Positions 4,977 to 15,780 of a DNA stretch of 64,000 bases are shown one piece after another. The stretch lies in contig OY754468.1 in assembly GCA_963575645.1 (NCBI GenBank), positions 11,470,001 through 11,534,000 of the forward strand, read 5' to 3'. The position numbers and the translations under genes were made by a program. Under the pieces are notes generated by a model. The model did no database searches, was not told where the DNA came from, and saw only the letters and a program-made list of their open reading frames with translations. Origin of the DNA: Xanthostigma xanthostigma. Its lineage: Eukaryota > Arthropoda > Insecta > Raphidioptera > Raphidiidae. The number at the start of each line of letters is the position of its first letter. Within the stretch, counting starts at the first letter, position 1.

Positions 4977-6240
4977 CTGTCTAAAGTTGCCTCGAATCAT
5001 CGAGTCTTCTCTTTCGAAATTCTTCGGCTAGTTCTATGTCGTTTGTTCCATTCTCTTTCGTTCTTACTTGACACTAGAGTCTAGTGTCAAGGAGTAGAGG
5101 ATTCTCAAAAAATCTTGTGATTGAGAGGGCAAGTGCCTCACAATCACAAGATTTTTTCCTCTAGTATGTATTCCTATTCGGATAGGAGACTTTTAATAAA
5201 CCATCCTACTTTGCTTTCAGCAAGCTCTACAAAAAACCTCATTATCTGGTCTTGCAGCCTTTTGGAGAAAACTGCTTCACATTTACCATACTGACCATTA
5301 CCCATCTTTGAGAAGTGGTACACCTTAGAGGAAAATGGCCAGTGAAGCGTTCTATGTTTTGAGCATAGTATACTCGTACCGAAGATTATTGAACCTGCCT
5401 CCTTCCTCTTTTAGTATTCGTTCTTACTTGACACTAGAGTCTAGTGTCAAGGAATGGAGGATTCTCAAAAAATCTTATGATTGTGAGGGCAAGTGCCTCA
5501 CAATCACAAGATTTTTTGTGAATCCTCTAGTATGTATTCCTATTCGGATAGGAGTCTTTTGATAAACCATCCTACTTTGCTTTCAGCAAGCTCTACAAAA
5601 GACCTCATCGGCTTTCTGGTCTTGCAGCCTTTTGGGAGAAAACTGCTTCTCATTTACCATATTGACCATTACCCATCTTTGAGAAGTGGTGCCACATCAG
5701 AGAAAAATGACCAGTGAAGCGTTCTATGTTTTAAACATAGCATACTCGACACATGTTAGCATCATCCGAAGATTATCAAAACTGCCTTCTTCCTCTTTTA
5801 GTATTCAATGTCTTCAGACCAAATCGGTTTCTTATTGAGTTCATTGATTAATCTTGGAAGGTTATGTCTATTCGGACACTGTTTAAAGATGCCTCGAACC
5901 ATCGAGTCTTCTCTTTCGAAATTCTTCCACTAATTCTATGTCGTTTGTTCCATTCTTTGTCATTTTTATTTGACACTAGAGTCTATTGTCAAGGAATACA
6001 TACTAAAGGAATCGCAAAAAATCTTGTGATTGTGAGGGCAAGTGCCTCACAATCACGAGATTTTTTGTCATAAGTTCTTCGTCAAACGTCAACGTCGTCG
6101 TATCACTTTAGGCTTATTTTCTCCACACATGCTTCTAGTATGCTTCTCTTACTCCTTGAGGTCACATTATACAAAGTTGTTAATTGACTCTTTGATCAGT
6201 TTGAAATATCAACGCAAAACGTCATATTGTCTTCACAAAA
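4977..6240. repeat. Three-unit tandem repeat carrying paired hairpins
   Basis: Units spaced about 360 and 549 bp repeat the same text. Each has a 25-bp palindrome (CTTGACACTAGA G TCTAGTGTCAAG at 5067-5091 and 5427-5451; a worn copy near 5969-5992), then a 51-bp hairpin with 22-bp arms around the loop GCAAGTG (5107-5157, 5467-5517, 6016-6066). About 220 bp of shared non-hairpin sequence follows. Each hairpin has at most one mismatch. I recognise no family; it could be a terminal array of a DNA element or a local satellite. Confidence 0.8.
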
Positions 6241-7106: not shown

Positions 7107-7458
7107 AATGTACTTTTTCGATTTGACCTTGACGATGGTGTCAGATGTCCGCCATTATGCCCGCCAGTTCGACGACAAGACGCGGCGTGCGGCTGCTGCG
7201 GTTATTGTAAAAGAGTCGCGAAAAACCGGTTGGCTGGTACTTGAAACACACTCGTACCAACTTAATTTCTGCGGCTGCAAGAACAAACAGCCTAAATCGT
7301 TTATAATGGCATTGTGTCGACGCTCACAAAGGTGCTCCAAAGGCAGAGAACAGCAATACCGAACAACTGGTTAGATCGAATTTTGGAAAAATTCTGTGCG
7401 TCTGTTTGTCTGTTAGTCTGTGAGCACGATGCAGATCAAACAGAAATCAGGTGCAGTT

Positions 7459-9208
7459 TGTAACGTTCCCCGTTGGCCCTTACGCCGTGTTGATAAGGAC
7501 GAAACGCTACTTCTTCCTGAACAAATACCAACGCTATTGTTGATATCTGTAGAGGGCAAAATCTTTAATTATTTTCCAAAAAATGTATTTCTTTTCTTTT
7601 TTACATCAAAAACAACATTACTTTTAAATTCAAATTTTATTCAATCAAAATATATTTTAAATCAATTTTATTTAACTTAACTTATAACTAACTTAACCTA
7701 AAGTTAACTTTAACTTTTTTAACTTTTTATTTTCAAAAATTATTTTACAATTTATTATATTTCAAAATTTCATTTTTATATTTTATAAATTCCAATTATT
7801 TCTCAACTTCGCTAATTTCAAATTATTTTCCAATTTACATATTATATGTCTTTATAATTCAATTTATCTTATAATTTTTCATTTAATATTTAATTAATCA
7901 AAATATGACTTTATTTTTTAAAGTAATTCATATACCCCTTCGTTATCTTCGGACTTTGCTAAATCTTTTTATTATATCATTATTTCTATTCGATATTATG
8001 CGTTATCTCTCATTCATTCATTTTAACTTTTATACCATTTTTTATATCATCATAATTTCTGTAGTTGCCCGATCTTTGCGGGTCTACAATAATAATACCT
8101 TTTTAAATACTTTATAATATTTCATAATTTCATCATAATAATTTTTTATAATTGCCCGTCTTTGCGGGTCGACAATTATATACTTTTAATACTTTATAAA
8201 TTTTTATCATTCATTCTTAATTTTTAGATCAAACGCATTGTTTCTTATATTAATACTTCAATTCTATAAATATTGAGCAAAGTTCGATAGCAAAGGAAGA
8301 AGTATATGGCAAACTTCTCTAAACATTATCCTATTCTTTTCAATATAAATATTCGCAAAGTATTGAATCTTTTTGAATTTAATATAAACAAAATTTATCA
8401 TATCATAAAAAAAATGAAAATTAATGTTCTTTAATTATTTGAAATCAAAATTATATAATTTACTGTGGAGATATACTTATTCTGAACTCCATTTTTTTTA
8501 TATGTTTAATATTTTTTACACTAAAAAACTAATACTTAATACCTATCTATATTTAAATTGTTTCTTTTATTATTTACAGTCCCTTTTTGGATATATTTAT
8601 TTACATTGACGCGTTAATATTGATAAGAGCAAAACCATCGAATCAATATTAACGGTATTATTTATTATATTATATAAGGCATTTTTTGATCAATTGATTT
8701 TATTTTTGTGCTCCTTTTTCCTATTGTATTTTTATTTAATTAAAAATGTTATCCAAAGTTTTATTACCTCATGATGACCAGAAAACTCCGTTCTTGATGA
8801 AATCAAGTAGGTAACGAAAAAAATGAAAATTTACTGATTAGCAAAATTAAACTATAAACTTATCGCGTGTACTTCCTTCTAAAGTTCGCAAGCAAGAGAG
8901 ACTCTTATCATCTTTTAGATTTCAAAAATGCTATCAATGACGGCGTTATTTCACCCCACTCTATCTTGATTCACCAATCAGTGCGATCGAAATTTTCAAG
9001 TTTACAGCAATATCAATCAGAATCGAACTTAGATAACATCTTTTTGAAAAGTACATTGTGTTCGTAAATGTAATTTGATTTAATAGCGTTTTGCATTTAG
9101 AATACTGAATGTTCAAAAATAAGTGAATTTAATTAATTAATAGAATTTTATGTTTCGGCTACTCAAAATAATGATTGGGGACAACGCCTGTAATGTTGTC
9201 ACATTACA
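7459..9208 (-). repeat. 3' LTR of the gypsy-type element
   Basis: The same 1750 bp as the other LTR, with the same small open frames at a constant 5682-bp offset. It abuts the polypurine tract on its interior side. Confidence 0.92.
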
Positions 9209-9447: not shown

Positions 9448-10209
9448 TTAGTAGACATCTTTGAGACGGTGATTGTGGTCGGCGGTCAAATTCCGGTACT
9501 TCTTCAAGTGAATTATTTTGGGTGTGTTGCTCGTCTGGTGATGTTCGCCTGTTTCGGGATATACTCGCATACGAGCATTATTACGTCTTGTCGTCTTGAC
9601 TCCATGTGGTTCGTGTCGCTTTCTTGGATTATCTGTACGATTCTTCATTTTATGTCGTGGTTGGATTCTTCGATTTTTTATGTCGAGTTTCGTTCTCAGC
9701 GGAAATTTGATAAATGTTTCGTGGATGGTTAACGGTTTTGTTTCGTCGATGGTTAATGGTTTTATTTTGTCGCTGGTCAATTCATCTGGCGGTGCTACAG
9801 GTAACTTGTGTGTGGTGCTGTTATTCCCGTTCGTTATTTCTTTTCGTATCGGTCTTCTTGGGGCGTCTGTATAAGCTTTAGACTTCGCGAGAAAGCTGCT
9901 CCTAATTAGTACGTTGACATATAAATTGGACATGATATAAGCCACTATTTCAAATTGAAAACCTTGGATAATGGCACTAATTATTGTAGCGTGTTGAATT
10001 GGTTTGCATTTTCTCTCGTAAATCGTCAATTTGTCACATTTACTTTGTTTTCTTCCGTATGCTGTGATTAGTTTTAACGCAGTTGTTGATAGCGCGGGTA
10101 GAAGTTGTTTCGCTTCTTCGTTGGATTTCTGATAGTTGGTTTCCGATATGACGGTGATTGTTGGTCTGGACTTTACAATGGCGAATTCACATTCTTGTTG
10201 TCTGAGCAA
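9448..10209 (-). CDS. Second frame of the LTR element, weakly protease-like
   Basis: 253 residues downstream of gag. The first 110 or so faintly resemble a retropepsin-like fold of insect gypsy elements (VISETNYQ, TAYGRKQSKC, LYVNVLIRSSFLAK). The remainder is Pro/Thr/Lys/Arg-rich and unrecognised. The open frame extends upstream without a Met. Similarity is by eye only and a different origin is possible. Confidence 0.4.
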   Translation of the reverse strand: MLRQQECEFAIVKSRPTITVISETNYQKSNEEAKQLLPALSTTALKLITAYGRKQSKCDKLTIYERKCKPIQHATIISAIIQGFQFEIVAYIMSNLYVNVLIRSSFLAKSKAYTDAPRRPIRKEITNGNNSTTHKLPVAPPDELTSDKIKPLTIDETKPLTIHETFIKFPLRTKLDIKNRRIQPRHKMKNRTDNPRKRHEPHGVKTTRRNNARMRVYPETGEHHQTSNTPKIIHLKKYRNLTADHNHRLKDVY

Positions 10210-10361
10210 TAATATGTCTGGTATGACTGAAATAGTTTTGTGGCGGCTTGGATGTACTTCTTCTATTAAATCTTCACTGATATTGTTGTGGAAGATACTG
10301 TGGCTATTACGTGCATGTGGACTCTGTTTATAGTTCTTCTTCTCGCCAACCTTCCCCAGAG

Positions 10362-11819
10362 TTAGGATGGTTGTCGATTGGAGTTTTCCGAACTATCTTC
10401 ATTCGGTCGACGTTGATTGTTTATATTTTGTCTTGACGGTCCCGTGTTATAATTTCGGTTTTCGTTGTCATTTCGACGCCAATTTGTATTTCGGTCGTTG
10501 TGATAATTTCGGTCTTGCTCCCTCTGTTGAAAATTTGAGTTGTTGTTTGGTCGTGATATATTTGGATTGTTGGTATCCGGAATACCAATACCTCTTGCTT
10601 GTCCATTGTTGGAGATGTTATCCATTATGGTTAATGTTTCTAGCATATCGAGCATAGTTGTGGGTCGTGATAAAGCAATTTGTTGTTGCCACGGATGTGG
10701 GAAATGCCTCATGACGCTTTCGATTAAGTATTCGGTAGATATTGGTGTATCCAAATACTTAGTTCGTTCCACCCAGTACAGGAAATGTTGCGTAAAATTC
10801 CCATACCGAGGGTTAAATCTTGCCGGAGATGATAAATTCCACAATATTTTTGATTGAATATTGTGCGACCAAAATTGTTTTTTGAATTGTTTTTCGAATG
10901 TTTCCCAATCCACTAGAAGTTCTTCTATGGAGCCAAACCAACGGAATGCGGTACCTCTCAAATACTTCTTTAAATTTTCGTGTAGTATTTGAGTGTTTCG
11001 TTGCTGTTTCGGTCCCATAATTTTCTTTAATTGATTTAGAAATTCCACTGGGTGTATTCTGTCTCTTTCGCCGTAGAATGGTTCCAGGTCAATAGGTCTG
11101 GTATTTTCATGACTATGGGCGTGACATGGTTCCCCTGCGATGTTGAGGTTTTGAATTTTTTCTTCTATTGCTTCTATTACTTGTGATTGTTCGCTGATGT
11201 TTTGCCGCATGGTCTCTGTTTTTTCGTTTACAGTTTCTTCCAGGGCTCGAGATCGATCTTCAATATCTTGTACTTGTTGGGTTACGTGATGTTCCAGTAG
11301 ATCTTGCCTTCGCTCGACGACCGTTATTTTCTTGTCCAGTTCGTTTTGCCTTTCGGATAATTTAATCTGGATTTCATTTATCTTGGTGTCTAAAGTTTCG
11401 GTGATTTCTTCTTTTACATGATGTATGTCTTCTTTTAGGTTTAATATATTAACTGCCGTACTCTGTGCTATTGTTGCATTAGTGGCCATTTTGTTTTCAA
11501 GATTTGATGCACTAGTGGCCATTTTGTTTTCCAGGCTCGATAATCTGTCCATTATCAGAAAATACACTTCATCCCTGGGATCTGGTTGTCGTTTAGATTC
11601 TTCGGGTTTCTTTTGCTCAGGCGTTGTTGCTAAATCAGGCATGTCGAAACTAATCCGGGTAGATTCGGTATTAGTTCCGTCTGACTCGTCCGCTTTCTTA
11701 ATTTCTATTATTTCGTGTGCATCTGTGTTGTCTGGTTTTGTTTCCGGTACTTCATTACTTTCCGGTATTGGTTCCAATCCCGGGGTTAAATCCGAAAAAT
11801 CGGTCGATGCGTCGTCCAT
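10362..11819 (-). CDS. gag: Gag-like protein of the LTR element
   Basis: An open frame of 485 residues with Gag layout. Residues 1-75 are acidic. Roughly 80-230 is a long heptad-rich coiled coil with a short internal duplication (LENKMATSAS/LENKMATNAT). About 245-410 resembles the capsid-like retrotransposon Gag domain (motifs PFYGERD, LRGTAFRWF, WETFEKQFKKQFW). The tail from 410 is basic and Asn/Arg-rich. Gag forms the particle shell and packages element RNA. It is first after the leader and starts at the first good ATG. Confidence 0.85.
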   Translation of the reverse strand: MDDASTDFSDLTPGLEPIPESNEVPETKPDNTDAHEIIEIKKADESDGTNTESTRISFDMPDLATTPEQKKPEESKRQPDPRDEVYFLIMDRLSSLENKMATSASNLENKMATNATIAQSTAVNILNLKEDIHHVKEEITETLDTKINEIQIKLSERQNELDKKITVVERRQDLLEHHVTQQVQDIEDRSRALEETVNEKTETMRQNISEQSQVIEAIEEKIQNLNIAGEPCHAHSHENTRPIDLEPFYGERDRIHPVEFLNQLKKIMGPKQQRNTQILHENLKKYLRGTAFRWFGSIEELLVDWETFEKQFKKQFWSHNIQSKILWNLSSPARFNPRYGNFTQHFLYWVERTKYLDTPISTEYLIESVMRHFPHPWQQQIALSRPTTMLDMLETLTIMDNISNNGQARGIGIPDTNNPNISRPNNNSNFQQREQDRNYHNDRNTNWRRNDNENRNYNTGPSRQNINNQRRPNEDSSENSNRQPS

Positions 11820-11969
11820 TGTTATATATTTGATTTTTTAGTTCGACTTATTACTTTTATTTAATTTGTTTTCAAATTAATTTTTTGTTGTTACAGCTTA
11901 TTAATTTGTGACGTTATTTGTTATTTAATTTTATTTATTTATTATTCTTATTATTAGCGAGACAATCAC

Positions 11970-12790
11970 AATCTCATATCAGAGAAAAACCTTCCAATAT
12001 TCAATTGATAACCCAGACTATTTTACAATCTTGTATCAAAGAAAAACCGCTCAATACTTAATCATAAAACAGCGTAGGACAATCTCAAATAATAAATGTT
12101 ATTTTAATTATTATAATAAATTGTTTAGTTTACTTGTTAATAGTCGATACTATTGTTTTTGTCTAATCCGGTAATATTTAATTATTTATTTCTTTAATTG
12201 TTAATAATAATTAATTTATAATTAATCAATCGAAGTTTACTTTTCAGAGTATTAGAGAAAAACTTATTCTTTATTTATAACTATCGTATTAGAGATAAAC
12301 CGTCTAATAGATAATTTCAATTTGTTTAATTTTATTTATTATAAATCCGTATTACTCTTGTTTTGTTGTATTAGAGATAAACCATCTAATAAACAATTAT
12401 CGTGAAGTATTATACTTTCGTTAGTTTTTTACTGTTAATTTTATCCAAATTTAACTTATCAGTATTCAAGTTTTAATATCAGTACTTTTCTTTATTTATT
12501 TATAATTATCGTATTAGAGATAAACCGTCTAATAGATAACTTCAATTAGTTTAATTTTCTTTGTTGTAAATCCGTATTAATTTTATTTTGTTATATTAGA
12601 GATAAACCATCTAATATACAATCGTCGTATTATGGTTAATTTATTTTAATTATTATATTAAATATCAAAGAAAAACCATCTGATAAATAATATTATAGTT
12701 TAATTCCAATTATTAATTTAATTAATTTTTTAATTACTTTTATTAATTTGTAATTGTAATATCAGAGAGAAACCGTCCAATATTCAATTG
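11970..12790 (-). repeat. Stem-loop array in the leader of the LTR element
   Basis: About nine copies of a 23-25-bp motif with a conserved core GATAAACC or GAAAAACC. The clearest are at 12287-12309, 12369-12391, 12512-12534, 12594-12616 and 12663-12685; weaker ones at 11976-12000, 12033-12057, 12249-12270 and 12758-12784. In the clear copies the flanks TATTAGA and TCTAATA pair. The copy at 12663 has TATCA opposite TGATA, a change on both sides that keeps the pairing. The array lies between primer site and gag, where structured signals are common in this class. Confidence 0.78.
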
Positions 12791-13117
12791 TTTTAACTAT
12801 ATTCTAATATAACTTAACAAAAAAAAATTTCAAATAAGTTTTAATTTCAAATAATATTCAAATAATATTTGCAGTTTTATTTCACTGCTGTATCAAAAAA
12901 TCAATTTATTTAGTGTAAAATAATGTCGTTTTGATGCAATGTTAGAACAACTTTTTAGCTTGCATAATTCCGTCAATGACAAGTTTTTGAATAATAGTCG
13001 AATGCACGATGCTATCCCGTTACGTGTTTATCGACTTAGAATAATTTTTATGTTAATTTACAAACTTTTTGAAAATTTTATAAAACTTTGCAAATTCCCC
13101 CTGTGCAAAAAATGACA

Positions 13118-13137
13118 GGGTCCTGTCACGGTCGCCA
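13118..13137 (-). promoter_or_regulatory. Primer-binding site, tRNA-Arg type
   Basis: Three bases inside the 5' LTR the minus strand reads TGGCGACCGTGACAGGAC, complementary to the 3' end (with CCA) of the insect tRNA-Arg(UCG) type as I recall it. The position and the TGG start are what reverse transcription of LTR elements requires. Confidence 0.85.
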
Positions 13138-13140
13138 ATT

Positions 13141-14890
13141 TGTAACGTTCCCCGTTGGCCCTTACGCCGTGTTGATAAGGACGAAACGCTACTTCTTCCT
13201 GAACAAATACCAACGCTATTGTTGATATCTGTAGAGGGCAAAATCTTTAATTATTTTCCAAAAAATGTATTTCTTTTCTTTTTTACATCAAAAACAACAT
13301 TACTTTTAAATTCAAATTTTATTCAATCAAAATATATTTTAAATCAATTTTATTTAACTTAACTTATAACTAACTTAACCTAAAGTTAACTTTAACTTTT
13401 TTAACTTTTTATTTTCAAAAATTATTTTACAATTTATTATATTTCAAAATTTCATTTTTATATTTTATAAATTCCAATTATTTCTCAACTTCGCTAATTT
13501 CAAATTATTTTCCAATTTACATATTATATGTCTTTATAATTCAATTTATCTTATAATTTTTCATTTAATATTTAATTAATCAAAATATGACTTTATTTTT
13601 TAAAGTAATTCATATACCCCTTCGTTATCTTCGGACTTTGCTAAATCTTTTTATTATATCATTATTTCTATTCGATATTATGCGTTATCTCTCATTCATT
13701 CATTTTAACTTTTATACCATTTTTTATATCATCATAATTTCTGTAGTTGCCCGATCTTTGCGGGTCTACAATAATAATACCTTTTTAAATACTTTATAAT
13801 ATTTCATAATTTCATCATAATAATTTTTTATAATTGCCCGTCTTTGCGGGTCGACAATTATATACTTTTAATACTTTATAAATTTTTATCATTCATTCTT
13901 AATTTTTAGATCAAACGCATTGTTTCTTATATTAATACTTCAATTCTATAAATATTGAGCAAAGTTCGATAGCAAAGGAAGAAGTATATGGCAAACTTCT
14001 CTAAACATTATCCTATTCTTTTCAATATAAATATTCGCAAAGTATTGAATCTTTTTGAATTTAATATAAACAAAATTTATCATATCATAAAAAAAATGAA
14101 AATTAATGTTCTTTAATTATTTGAAATCAAAATTATATAATTTACTGTGGAGATATACTTATTCTGAACTCCATTTTTTTTATATGTTTAATATTTTTTA
14201 CACTAAAAAACTAATACTTAATACCTATCTATATTTAAATTGTTTCTTTTATTATTTACAGTCCCTTTTTGGATATATTTATTTACATTGACGCGTTAAT
14301 ATTGATAAGAGCAAAACCATCGAATCAATATTAACGGTATTATTTATTATATTATATAAGGCATTTTTTGATCAATTGATTTTATTTTTGTGCTCCTTTT
14401 TCCTATTGTATTTTTATTTAATTAAAAATGTTATCCAAAGTTTTATTACCTCATGATGACCAGAAAACTCCGTTCTTGATGAAATCAAGTAGGTAACGAA
14501 AAAAATGAAAATTTACTGATTAGCAAAATTAAACTATAAACTTATCGCGTGTACTTCCTTCTAAAGTTCGCAAGCAAGAGAGACTCTTATCATCTTTTAG
14601 ATTTCAAAAATGCTATCAATGACGGCGTTATTTCACCCCACTCTATCTTGATTCACCAATCAGTGCGATCGAAATTTTCAAGTTTACAGCAATATCAATC
14701 AGAATCGAACTTAGATAACATCTTTTTGAAAAGTACATTGTGTTCGTAAATGTAATTTGATTTAATAGCGTTTTGCATTTAGAATACTGAATGTTCAAAA
14801 ATAAGTGAATTTAATTAATTAATAGAATTTTATGTTTCGGCTACTCAAAATAATGATTGGGGACAACGCCTGTAATGTTGTCACATTACA
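13141..14890 (-). repeat. 5' LTR of the gypsy-type element
   Basis: 1750 bp, bounded by the short inverted repeat TGTAA/TTACA. AT-rich, with two small GC hairpins around TTGCCCG...CGGG. Promoter and polyadenylation signals were not assigned. Confidence 0.92.
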
Positions 14891-15442
14891 AGTTTCGCTT
14901 CGATTGTAACGGAATGTAAAGTAAGTATGCGTTTTTGTATAGAAATTATTAGAAATGAAGGATAGAGATAGAGAAATAGGCGATTTAGTTTTGCGGCCAC
15001 AGATTTTATTAGTGTAAGTACCGGTCATTGATACACCCACTGACATAAAAAAATGGACGGTGCAAACAAGACACTTGCTCTTTTTAGAAACAAACTCGGA
15101 CCAATAGATTTGATGTTTTTAACCGTATCTGTTAAATCACTACATATTAAGTACAAAGTCCTCTACGGTTTTCACCAATGGACGGATTGAATCAAGAGAA
15201 AGGTTTATGTGTATAATTCATTAATGTTTTGTGTAAATCGGTTCAAATATGACGATGATTGTTGAAGATGTCGGAAATAATCAAGCCGACTGGGAGCTTT
15301 CATCGAAAACGCTGCCTAATCCCTTTGATATATAACAAAAACAACGTATGGTGGAATTGTTCCTCTTTTATTAACCGACGAAAAACAAAAACGGAGGAGG
15401 TTCTCAAGTCGACGCGTATATTTTTTTTTTTATTTTTTTTTT

Positions 15443-15780
15443 TTATGTATGACCACGCATAACTTTTTACAGAGTAGTCCGATTTTGATAAATATTTTTT
15501 TATTTGAAAGGGTATACCCCGAAGTTGGTCCCATTTAAATTTGGTAAAAAAATTCCAACCCTAAGGGTAGGAAAACAGGGGATGATTGATTGTTCACTCA
15601 CTGATTGTAATGTATGACCACACATAACTTTTTACAGAGTAGTCCGATTTTGATAATTATTTTTTTATTGGATAGGGTATACCTCGAGGTTGGTCTCATA
15701 TAAATTTAGAAAAAAAATTCCTACCCTAAGGGTGGGAAAATAGGGGTGATTTATTGTTCACTCACAGATTTATGTATTAC
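15443..15780 (+). repeat. Two-unit tandem repeat, about 165 bp each
   Basis: Both units contain CATAACTTTTTACAGAGTAG, a TACCCTAAGGGT-like short palindrome and TTGTTCACTCAC. They lie inside the interruption of the family-C element and differ at perhaps 10 percent of sites. Confidence 0.8.

Follow-up and report, generated by a model that had tools for sequence, protein, structure and literature searches.

An LTR element in the snakefly Xanthostigma xanthostigma carries a run of small hairpin-forming sequences between its primer site and gag. Are these sequences selected as RNA structures and, if so, what reads them? The window analysed here is the whole 64,000-nt stretch around the element (G000:C5:11470001-11534000), taken from a 623-Mb genome that also served for genome-wide pattern searches. 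The element is of Ty3/gypsy type and lies on the minus strand of the window, with LTRs ending in TG..CA, a short target duplication and a tRNA primer site (Table 1). ARAGORN called 2 tRNA-Arg(UCG) genes in the genome among three stretches tried, with L054 and L055 returned as tRNA-Arg(tcg) and no tRNA in L053. The first-pass annotation described the element as young, and its 1750-bp LTRs are identical. Because the window pol frame aligns only to the two stretches of the L042 pol frame given in Table 1, the RT, RNase H and integrase core are missing from this copy. In copy L042, a 9.9-kb stretch, the gag and pol frames are open, no further frame reaches 200 aa, and pol has the order protease, RT, RNase H, integrase; the best match of the protease is gag-asp_proteas, slightly under its curated cut-off. 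Judged by sequence, this copy is young, and its anatomy makes it non-autonomous. Two other repeated regions lie outside it: a pair of 142-nt direct repeats, 89% alike and 165 nt start to start, just beyond the element at 15440-15746, and nested direct repeats of 86-120 nt with several spacings at 4977-6066.

Table 1. Features of the LTR element in the window, listed in the direction of transcription.
Feature	Position	Strand	Description
Target duplication AGTT	7455-7458 and 14891-14894		flanks the window element
5' LTR	13141..14890	-	1750 bp, 1750/1750 identical to the 3' LTR
LTR hairpin, 5' LTR	14295..14335	-	GTTAATATTGATTCGA TGGTTTTGC TCTTATCAATATTAAC; 14/16 paired
Primer binding site TGGCGACCGTGACAGGAC	13120..13137	-	18 nt, complementary to the tRNA-Arg(UCG) 3' end plus CCA
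Leader hairpin 1	12759..12783	-	ATATTGGA CGGTTTCTC TCTGATAT; first after the primer site
Leader hairpin 2	12662..12686	-	TATCAGA TGGTTTTTC TTTGATA; carries the two-sided change
Leader hairpin 3	12593..12617	-	TATTAGA TGGTTTATC TCTAATA
Leader hairpin 4	12511..12535	-	
Leader hairpin 5	12368..12392	-	paralogue of hairpin 3 via duplication, 225-nt spacing
Leader hairpin 6	12286..12310	-	paralogue of hairpin 4
Decayed half-site	12249..12264	-	keeps loop and 3' arm; pairing 5' arm lost
Leader hairpin 7	12033..12057	-	TATTGAG CGGTTTTTC TTTGATA; 4 Watson-Crick and 3 G.U pairs
Leader hairpin 8	11976..12000	-	TATTGGA AGGTTTTTC TCTGATA; nearest gag
gag	10362..11819	-	485 aa; low-confidence N-terminus, long helix, capsid-like region, N/R-rich tail
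pol remnant	9448..10392	-	matches residues 1-157 and 946-1101 of the L042 pol frame
3' LTR	7459..9208	-	1750 bp
LTR hairpin, 3' LTR	8613..8653	-	copy of the 5' LTR hairpin

The window leader, from primer site to gag, is 1316 nt long and 21.8% G+C. Its array comprises eight intact hairpins and one half-site, each hairpin with a 7-bp stem and a 9-nt loop that reads (Y/A)GGUUU(W/C)UC in the transcribed strand. About nine stem-loops had been announced; eight of them are intact, but the ninth is the half-site. The fixed loop of the earlier description does recur, but the sequence given for it, GATAAACC, is the complement of the RNA loop, since the element's transcript comes from the minus strand. 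That the motif recurs between the primer site and gag is agreed on by repeat, pattern and covariance-model searches. The first returned a 32-nt family of 8 copies, from 11976 to 12790. A pattern of loop plus 3' arm had nine matches in the array region (eight exact, one with 1 mismatch) and, with 2 mismatches allowed, 16 in the whole window, where shuffled sequence gave 4.31 on average and at most 10. The covariance model, built in part from the same eight sites and run with filters off, scored the eight hairpins at E 2.7e-08 to 1.7e-06, with the next window match at E 0.27. Searched by itself, the loop GGTTTNTC has 8 sites in the sense strand of the window leader and 0 in the antisense strand. 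All eight sites defined in this way pair at 7/7 positions (48 Watson-Crick, 8 G.U and 0 A.C cells), a degree of pairing that arms at other leader positions reach in 1 of 1284 cases. The two-sided change reported at 12663-12685 is present: stems that read TATTAGA/TCTAATA elsewhere read TATCAGA/TTTGATA there.

To follow the array through the family, we aligned 13 leaders of family A, the window included, and scanned the first 1420 nt from the primer site for loops; two further partial matches, L043 and L044, were left out of the alignment. Absence of the array from other copies had been named beforehand as grounds for abandoning the structural reading. It is present, whole or in part, in 13/13 aligned leaders, and no leader hairpin was seen in the unaligned L043 and L044. 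The 96 loop-defined sites largely bear out the claim that stems stay paired while their sequence shifts: 82 pair 7/7, 12 pair 6/7, one pairs 5/7 and one 3/7, and 11 of the twelve 6/7 cases are a single site, TGTTGAC TGGTTTTTC TTCAACA, with six good pairs. Within family A, stem changes are few. One in L036 breaks a pair, small indels disturb two sites in L033 and L034, and L041 has lost the GG from one loop. The number of hairpins also varies, several having been deleted in L041 and L037. As a separate observation, the leaders of L033 and L034 (G000:C1:33998000-34011800) lie 5.8 kb apart in the same orientation, as in a tandem short form, LTR-internal-LTR-internal.

The stem cells of the 13 leaders, which are not independent because the copies are related by descent, comprise 565 Watson-Crick, 89 G.U, 0 A.C and 18 other combinations. 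G.U without A.C indicates pairing in the sense RNA rather than DNA palindromes. This asymmetry bears directly on a DNA-level account, in which the array would hold sites for zinc-finger or other DNA-binding proteins and act as an insulator or enhancer. The account has an anatomical precedent: gypsy of Drosophila, ZAM and Idefix carry a motif array between the 5' LTR and gag that is described, in the available part of PMC8872304, as a DNA regulatory element contacted by host proteins, and both location and repeated layout match those of the 5'UTR insulators there. DNA palindromes, however, have no preferred strand, and in the sense strand the leaders deviate by 89 G.U against 0 A.C; moreover, stem sequences change completely between sites. 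Against this, the 89 G.U cells share ancestry, and sites in the LTRs hold 4 A.C. We nonetheless disfavour a DNA insulator on the strength of the leader asymmetry, and consider a DNA-level role very improbable.

The stems are also the most conserved part of the leader. Minority letters account for 9/1397 stem positions, 20/900 in loops, 54/2018 in near flanks and 385/12025 in the rest, and 7/126 stem columns are variable compared with 194/1000 other leader columns. These figures matter for a further alternative, that tandem duplication in an AT-rich leader produced the array without selection on structure. Part of the array has certainly been duplicated, as a 137-nt pair at 225-nt spacing, 90% alike, lies within it. 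Yet variation is lower in the stems than in the remaining leader and leaves pairing intact, and hairpins found in the 3'UTR, in the LTR and in the sister family are no simple copies; duplication without selection is, of the explanations weighed here, the one we find hardest to credit.

Covariation, the check proposed with the original observation, was assessed over 27 distinct hairpins. This set is 27 of 29 rows, two chance-looking rows having been dropped, and it takes in three kinds of hairpin missing from an earlier, hand-picked set of 14: LTR forms with GAATAGA, LTR forms of the sister family, and the L036 form with its broken pair. Among the collected rows, loop positions GG, T and C are invariant on differing stems. 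Pairing holds in 95.2% of cells. Two-sided changes occur in 41 cells, compared with 11.5 in shuffles (reached in 0/500), and all seven pairs have changed on both sides, which 6/500 shuffles attain; the covariation score is 0.751, compared with 0.318 when shuffled and at most 0.263 in slid versions. Since both sets were prefiltered at 6/7 pairs or more, the loop-only scans described above are the unbiased test. With G.U present in the absence of A.C, stems the least variable part and related loops sitting on unrelated stems, selection on RNA structure in the leader array, as first proposed, is well supported.

Folded alone, each of the eight is predicted to form a 7-8 bp stem with the first loop base unpaired and one or two further pairs. 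The 840-nt array region, compared with 60 shuffles each, has a z of -2.6 in sense and -0.6 in antisense; the suggested comparison with shuffled sequence thus gave a predicted folding energy that is low, but only moderately so. When the leader is folded as a whole, hairpins 1-8 have mean pair probabilities of 0.99, 0.98, 0.00, 0.63, 0.50, 0.89, 0.95 and 0.82, hairpin 3 being predicted not to form. Structure by itself could serve as a translation device, controlling start-site choice or internal entry with no protein docking, and the position of the array between the primer site and gag, in a long and AT-rich leader, would suit such a role. A conserved loop is not needed for it, however, and the same loop recurs in the LTR and 3'UTR. 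We regard a purely structural translation device as improbable.

The array had been placed in the leader, and so it is, but hairpins of this kind extend to the LTR and 3'UTR as well. In both L038 and L042, the 3'UTR has the loop CGGTTTATC on a stem immediately ahead of the 3' LTR; the L042 stem is 13 bp long, GCGTTGACATGAG/CTCATGTCAACGT, and unrelated in sequence to the leader stems. The same loop is found in the L042 LTR on the stem GGATTAGA/TTTAATCC. Across the scanned loci, LTR hairpins take seven forms, in which one inner pair is A-T, G-C or G.U depending on the form, and some forms hold C.A or A.C mismatches. In nine copies, 17 loop-defined LTR sites have 86 Watson-Crick, 11 G.U, 4 A.C and 18 other cells; the corresponding leader counts for those copies are 405, 63, 0 and 8. 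When one LTR hairpin was searched for in the genome with its paired positions left free, the 56 matches contained no two-sided change and lent no support: 16 exact rows are identical, and 15/15 one-mismatch rows lose the outermost pair. Between the gag start and the 3' LTR, nine loop-like sequences occur in 9 copies (a gag start was not found for L037). Seven of them pair at only 1-2/7 positions, and the remaining two, which pair 7/7, are the hairpins already described in the 3'UTR of L038 and L042.

When up to 2 mismatches are allowed, a leader 23-mer matches the genome 131 times, compared with 15 for a reversed control. Among the best 100 of the 131, 58/58 with zero mismatches and 16/17 with one mismatch lie inside the 13 copies; among the 25 two-mismatch matches listed, of 56, are additional leader sites, hairpins of the LTR and isolated matches at scattered places. 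Among the matches listed, the 23-mer is therefore almost confined to this element family.

Related elements in the same genome carry hairpins of their own. In 11 loci of a sister family (L020-L030; gag 49% identical), the leader contains two hairpins whose loops are altered; one of the two pairs 6/7 in L024. Three longer stretches of this family hold one to four LTR hairpins, spaced 67-69 nt apart where there are four. A search for its stem pattern with one free pair gave 81 exact rows, which a count by hand divides into A-T 60, G-C 11, G-T 9 and A-C 1, seven of the nine G-T rows coming from one array. At G000:C10:9247014-9247520, sister-family LTR-type hairpins have expanded to eight copies at a spacing of about 69 nt. 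More distantly, five stretches upstream of gag relatives at about 30% identity were examined, and four have 114-nt repeats before gag. These tandem repeats (L048-L051, about 1720-2420) contain a bulged-C hairpin, ATCA-C-GGAGGGCG CAAGTT TGTTCTCC-TGAT, that differs in sequence from the family A hairpin. We aligned 11 of the 17 distant hairpins, leaving out four repeats of those kept and two that fold differently. In these 11, 97.0% of cells pair and G.U/A.U changes occur with pairing kept; no two-sided change was found among them, and shuffles do equally well. At most, these distant relatives hint at a lineage that habitually carries hairpin arrays in its leaders. Another locus, L052 (G000:C8:33884700-33887400), looks as though its LTR end and primer site were duplicated: at sense positions 2360-2510, a primer-site-like repeat, TGGCGAYYYTGCCAGGA, follows TTACAATT at least three times, with the repeats 40-86 nt apart.

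What might read such an array, for which the first-pass annotation named no partner? The fixed loop, variable stems, many copies, sense-strand pairing and unpaired loop-like sequences of the coding part argue for docking of a protein. The main rival to the element's own Gag is a host RNA-binding protein that would control stability, translation or localisation of the element RNA, for example in the germ line, through sites gathered in the leader, LTR and 3'UTR. Sites of hairpin-binding proteins usually have one loop in common, with the stem free to vary. The LTR and 3'UTR sites, and the unpaired state of loop-like sequences in the coding part, would suit a host factor equally, as would a labile copy number like that of the sister-family LTR arrays. 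The near-confinement of the leader 23-mer used as query to this element family, among the matches listed, speaks against one, and comparison with known motifs does not supply a candidate. Smaug recognises a hairpin loop CNGGN0-4, according to the available text of PMC4053848, and we rejected it as a match, a C two bases before GG being found in 5/29 hairpin rows (two of the 29 chance-looking). An Rfam search of window positions 11800-13200 gave two matches, at E 3.2 and 4.4, both under the gathering score. On balance, we consider a host protein somewhat unlikely as the partner.

We favour Gag because the signal is family-specific, is kept in pol-deleted copies and accompanies a Gag without a CCHC knuckle. 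The window Gag has 1 Cys in all, so that its choice of RNA would need another feature; to our knowledge, how LTR-retrotransposon Gags lacking zinc knuckles choose their RNA is poorly understood. The structure model of Gag is of low confidence overall (pLDDT 61.5, pTM 0.29). Its best PDB matches, to the capsids of dArc1 and Ty3, have E values of 0.011-0.035, all above 0.001, and Pfam Ty3_capsid matches at E 0.004, under its cut-off; the modelled capsid region would thus resemble Ty3 and dArc1 capsids weakly. Hairpin-forming sequences that pair in the sense strand and bear compensatory changes occur in pol-bearing and pol-deleted copies alike, and the pol-deleted window copy, with its identical LTRs, retains the array, as a cis signal that is put to use in trans would be expected to do.

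Our leading interpretation is that the array is a selected set of multivalent RNA-protein recognition sites, with Gag as partner, serving packaging and/or a switch from translation to packaging. We put it forward tentatively, at close to an even chance; protein binding, the identity of Gag and the packaging outcome are its conjectural parts. The fixed loop, on any stable stem, would provide a docking site of sequence plus structure repeated along the genomic RNA. Many weak sites may jointly tag the RNA for packaging and/or flip it from translation to packaging, and non-autonomous copies without most of pol could be served by the same signal. Kissing contact between loops was considered separately and rejected: the loop complements GATAAACC, GAAAAACC and ATAAACC are absent from the sense strand of the window copy and L042. 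On that strand the window copy has no AAAAACC and L042 has one, and the 5-mer AAACC occurs 9 times in the window copy and 21 times in L042.

Several known systems offer partial likenesses. Dispersed packaging signals of MS2, STNV, HBV and picornaviruses likewise consist of many stem-loops sharing a short motif while the sequence around them varies, and are proposed, in the available parts of PMC6281560 and PMC7612645, to bind coat protein together. Unlike these, our sites cluster in the leader, LTR and 3'UTR, with loop-like sequences of the coding part at 1-2/7 pairs, and protein contact is here our conjecture. In plants, LTRs of Sirevirus (Ty1/copia) carry high-copy palindromic RM boxes in non-coding parts; in the accessible text of PMC2829016, these are mostly CGG-CCG and upstream of the TATA box, and the authors discuss DNA-binding factors. 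The window array has instead strand-specific, RNA-like pairing in the leader and a 9-nt loop, and lacks the CGG-CCG palindrome; it differs from gypsy-type insulators too, its pairing being strand-specific and the evidence favouring sense RNA. Dispersed viral packaging signals appear closest in mechanism, and Sirevirus boxes and 5'UTR insulators in anatomy. In Ty1 and Ty3 genomic RNA, 5' structures take part in packaging, with Gag sites imprecisely mapped and packaging sequences not clearly defined, and the parts of PMC4974528 and PMC11381356 available to us describe no repeated, loop-matched hairpin array in the 5' cis-acting region. Fungal GalEa Copia elements have a Conserved Hairpin Site just after the 5' LTR (PMC5445492); as described in the available text, it is a single hairpin and the primer site is absent, whereas the window element has a hairpin array and a tRNA-Arg primer site. 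The accessible parts of PMC12992720 and PMC2443393 hold nothing on such hairpins. Our literature search, in which subscription papers (for example, work on Idefix Gag and its 5'UTR) were poorly covered, returned related kinds only and no loop-matched hairpin array in an LTR leader. As far as the text available describes them, the compared systems each lack the combination of a leader array, one loop and strand-specific pairing of RNA.

More broadly, and with less assurance than for the array of the window family, a metazoan Ty3/gypsy lineage may possess a loop-coded array in leader, LTR and 3'UTR that is read cooperatively by a zinc-knuckle-less Gag, its pol-deleted relatives being packaged in trans and distant relatives in the same genome using a different array at the same position; we hold this wider proposal to be possible, though short of probable. 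The 25-nt hairpin, with eight repeats, natural stem variants and a fixed loop, is a short RNA open to direct testing. If Gag does read the array, this would be a reason why pol-deleted copies stay mobile.
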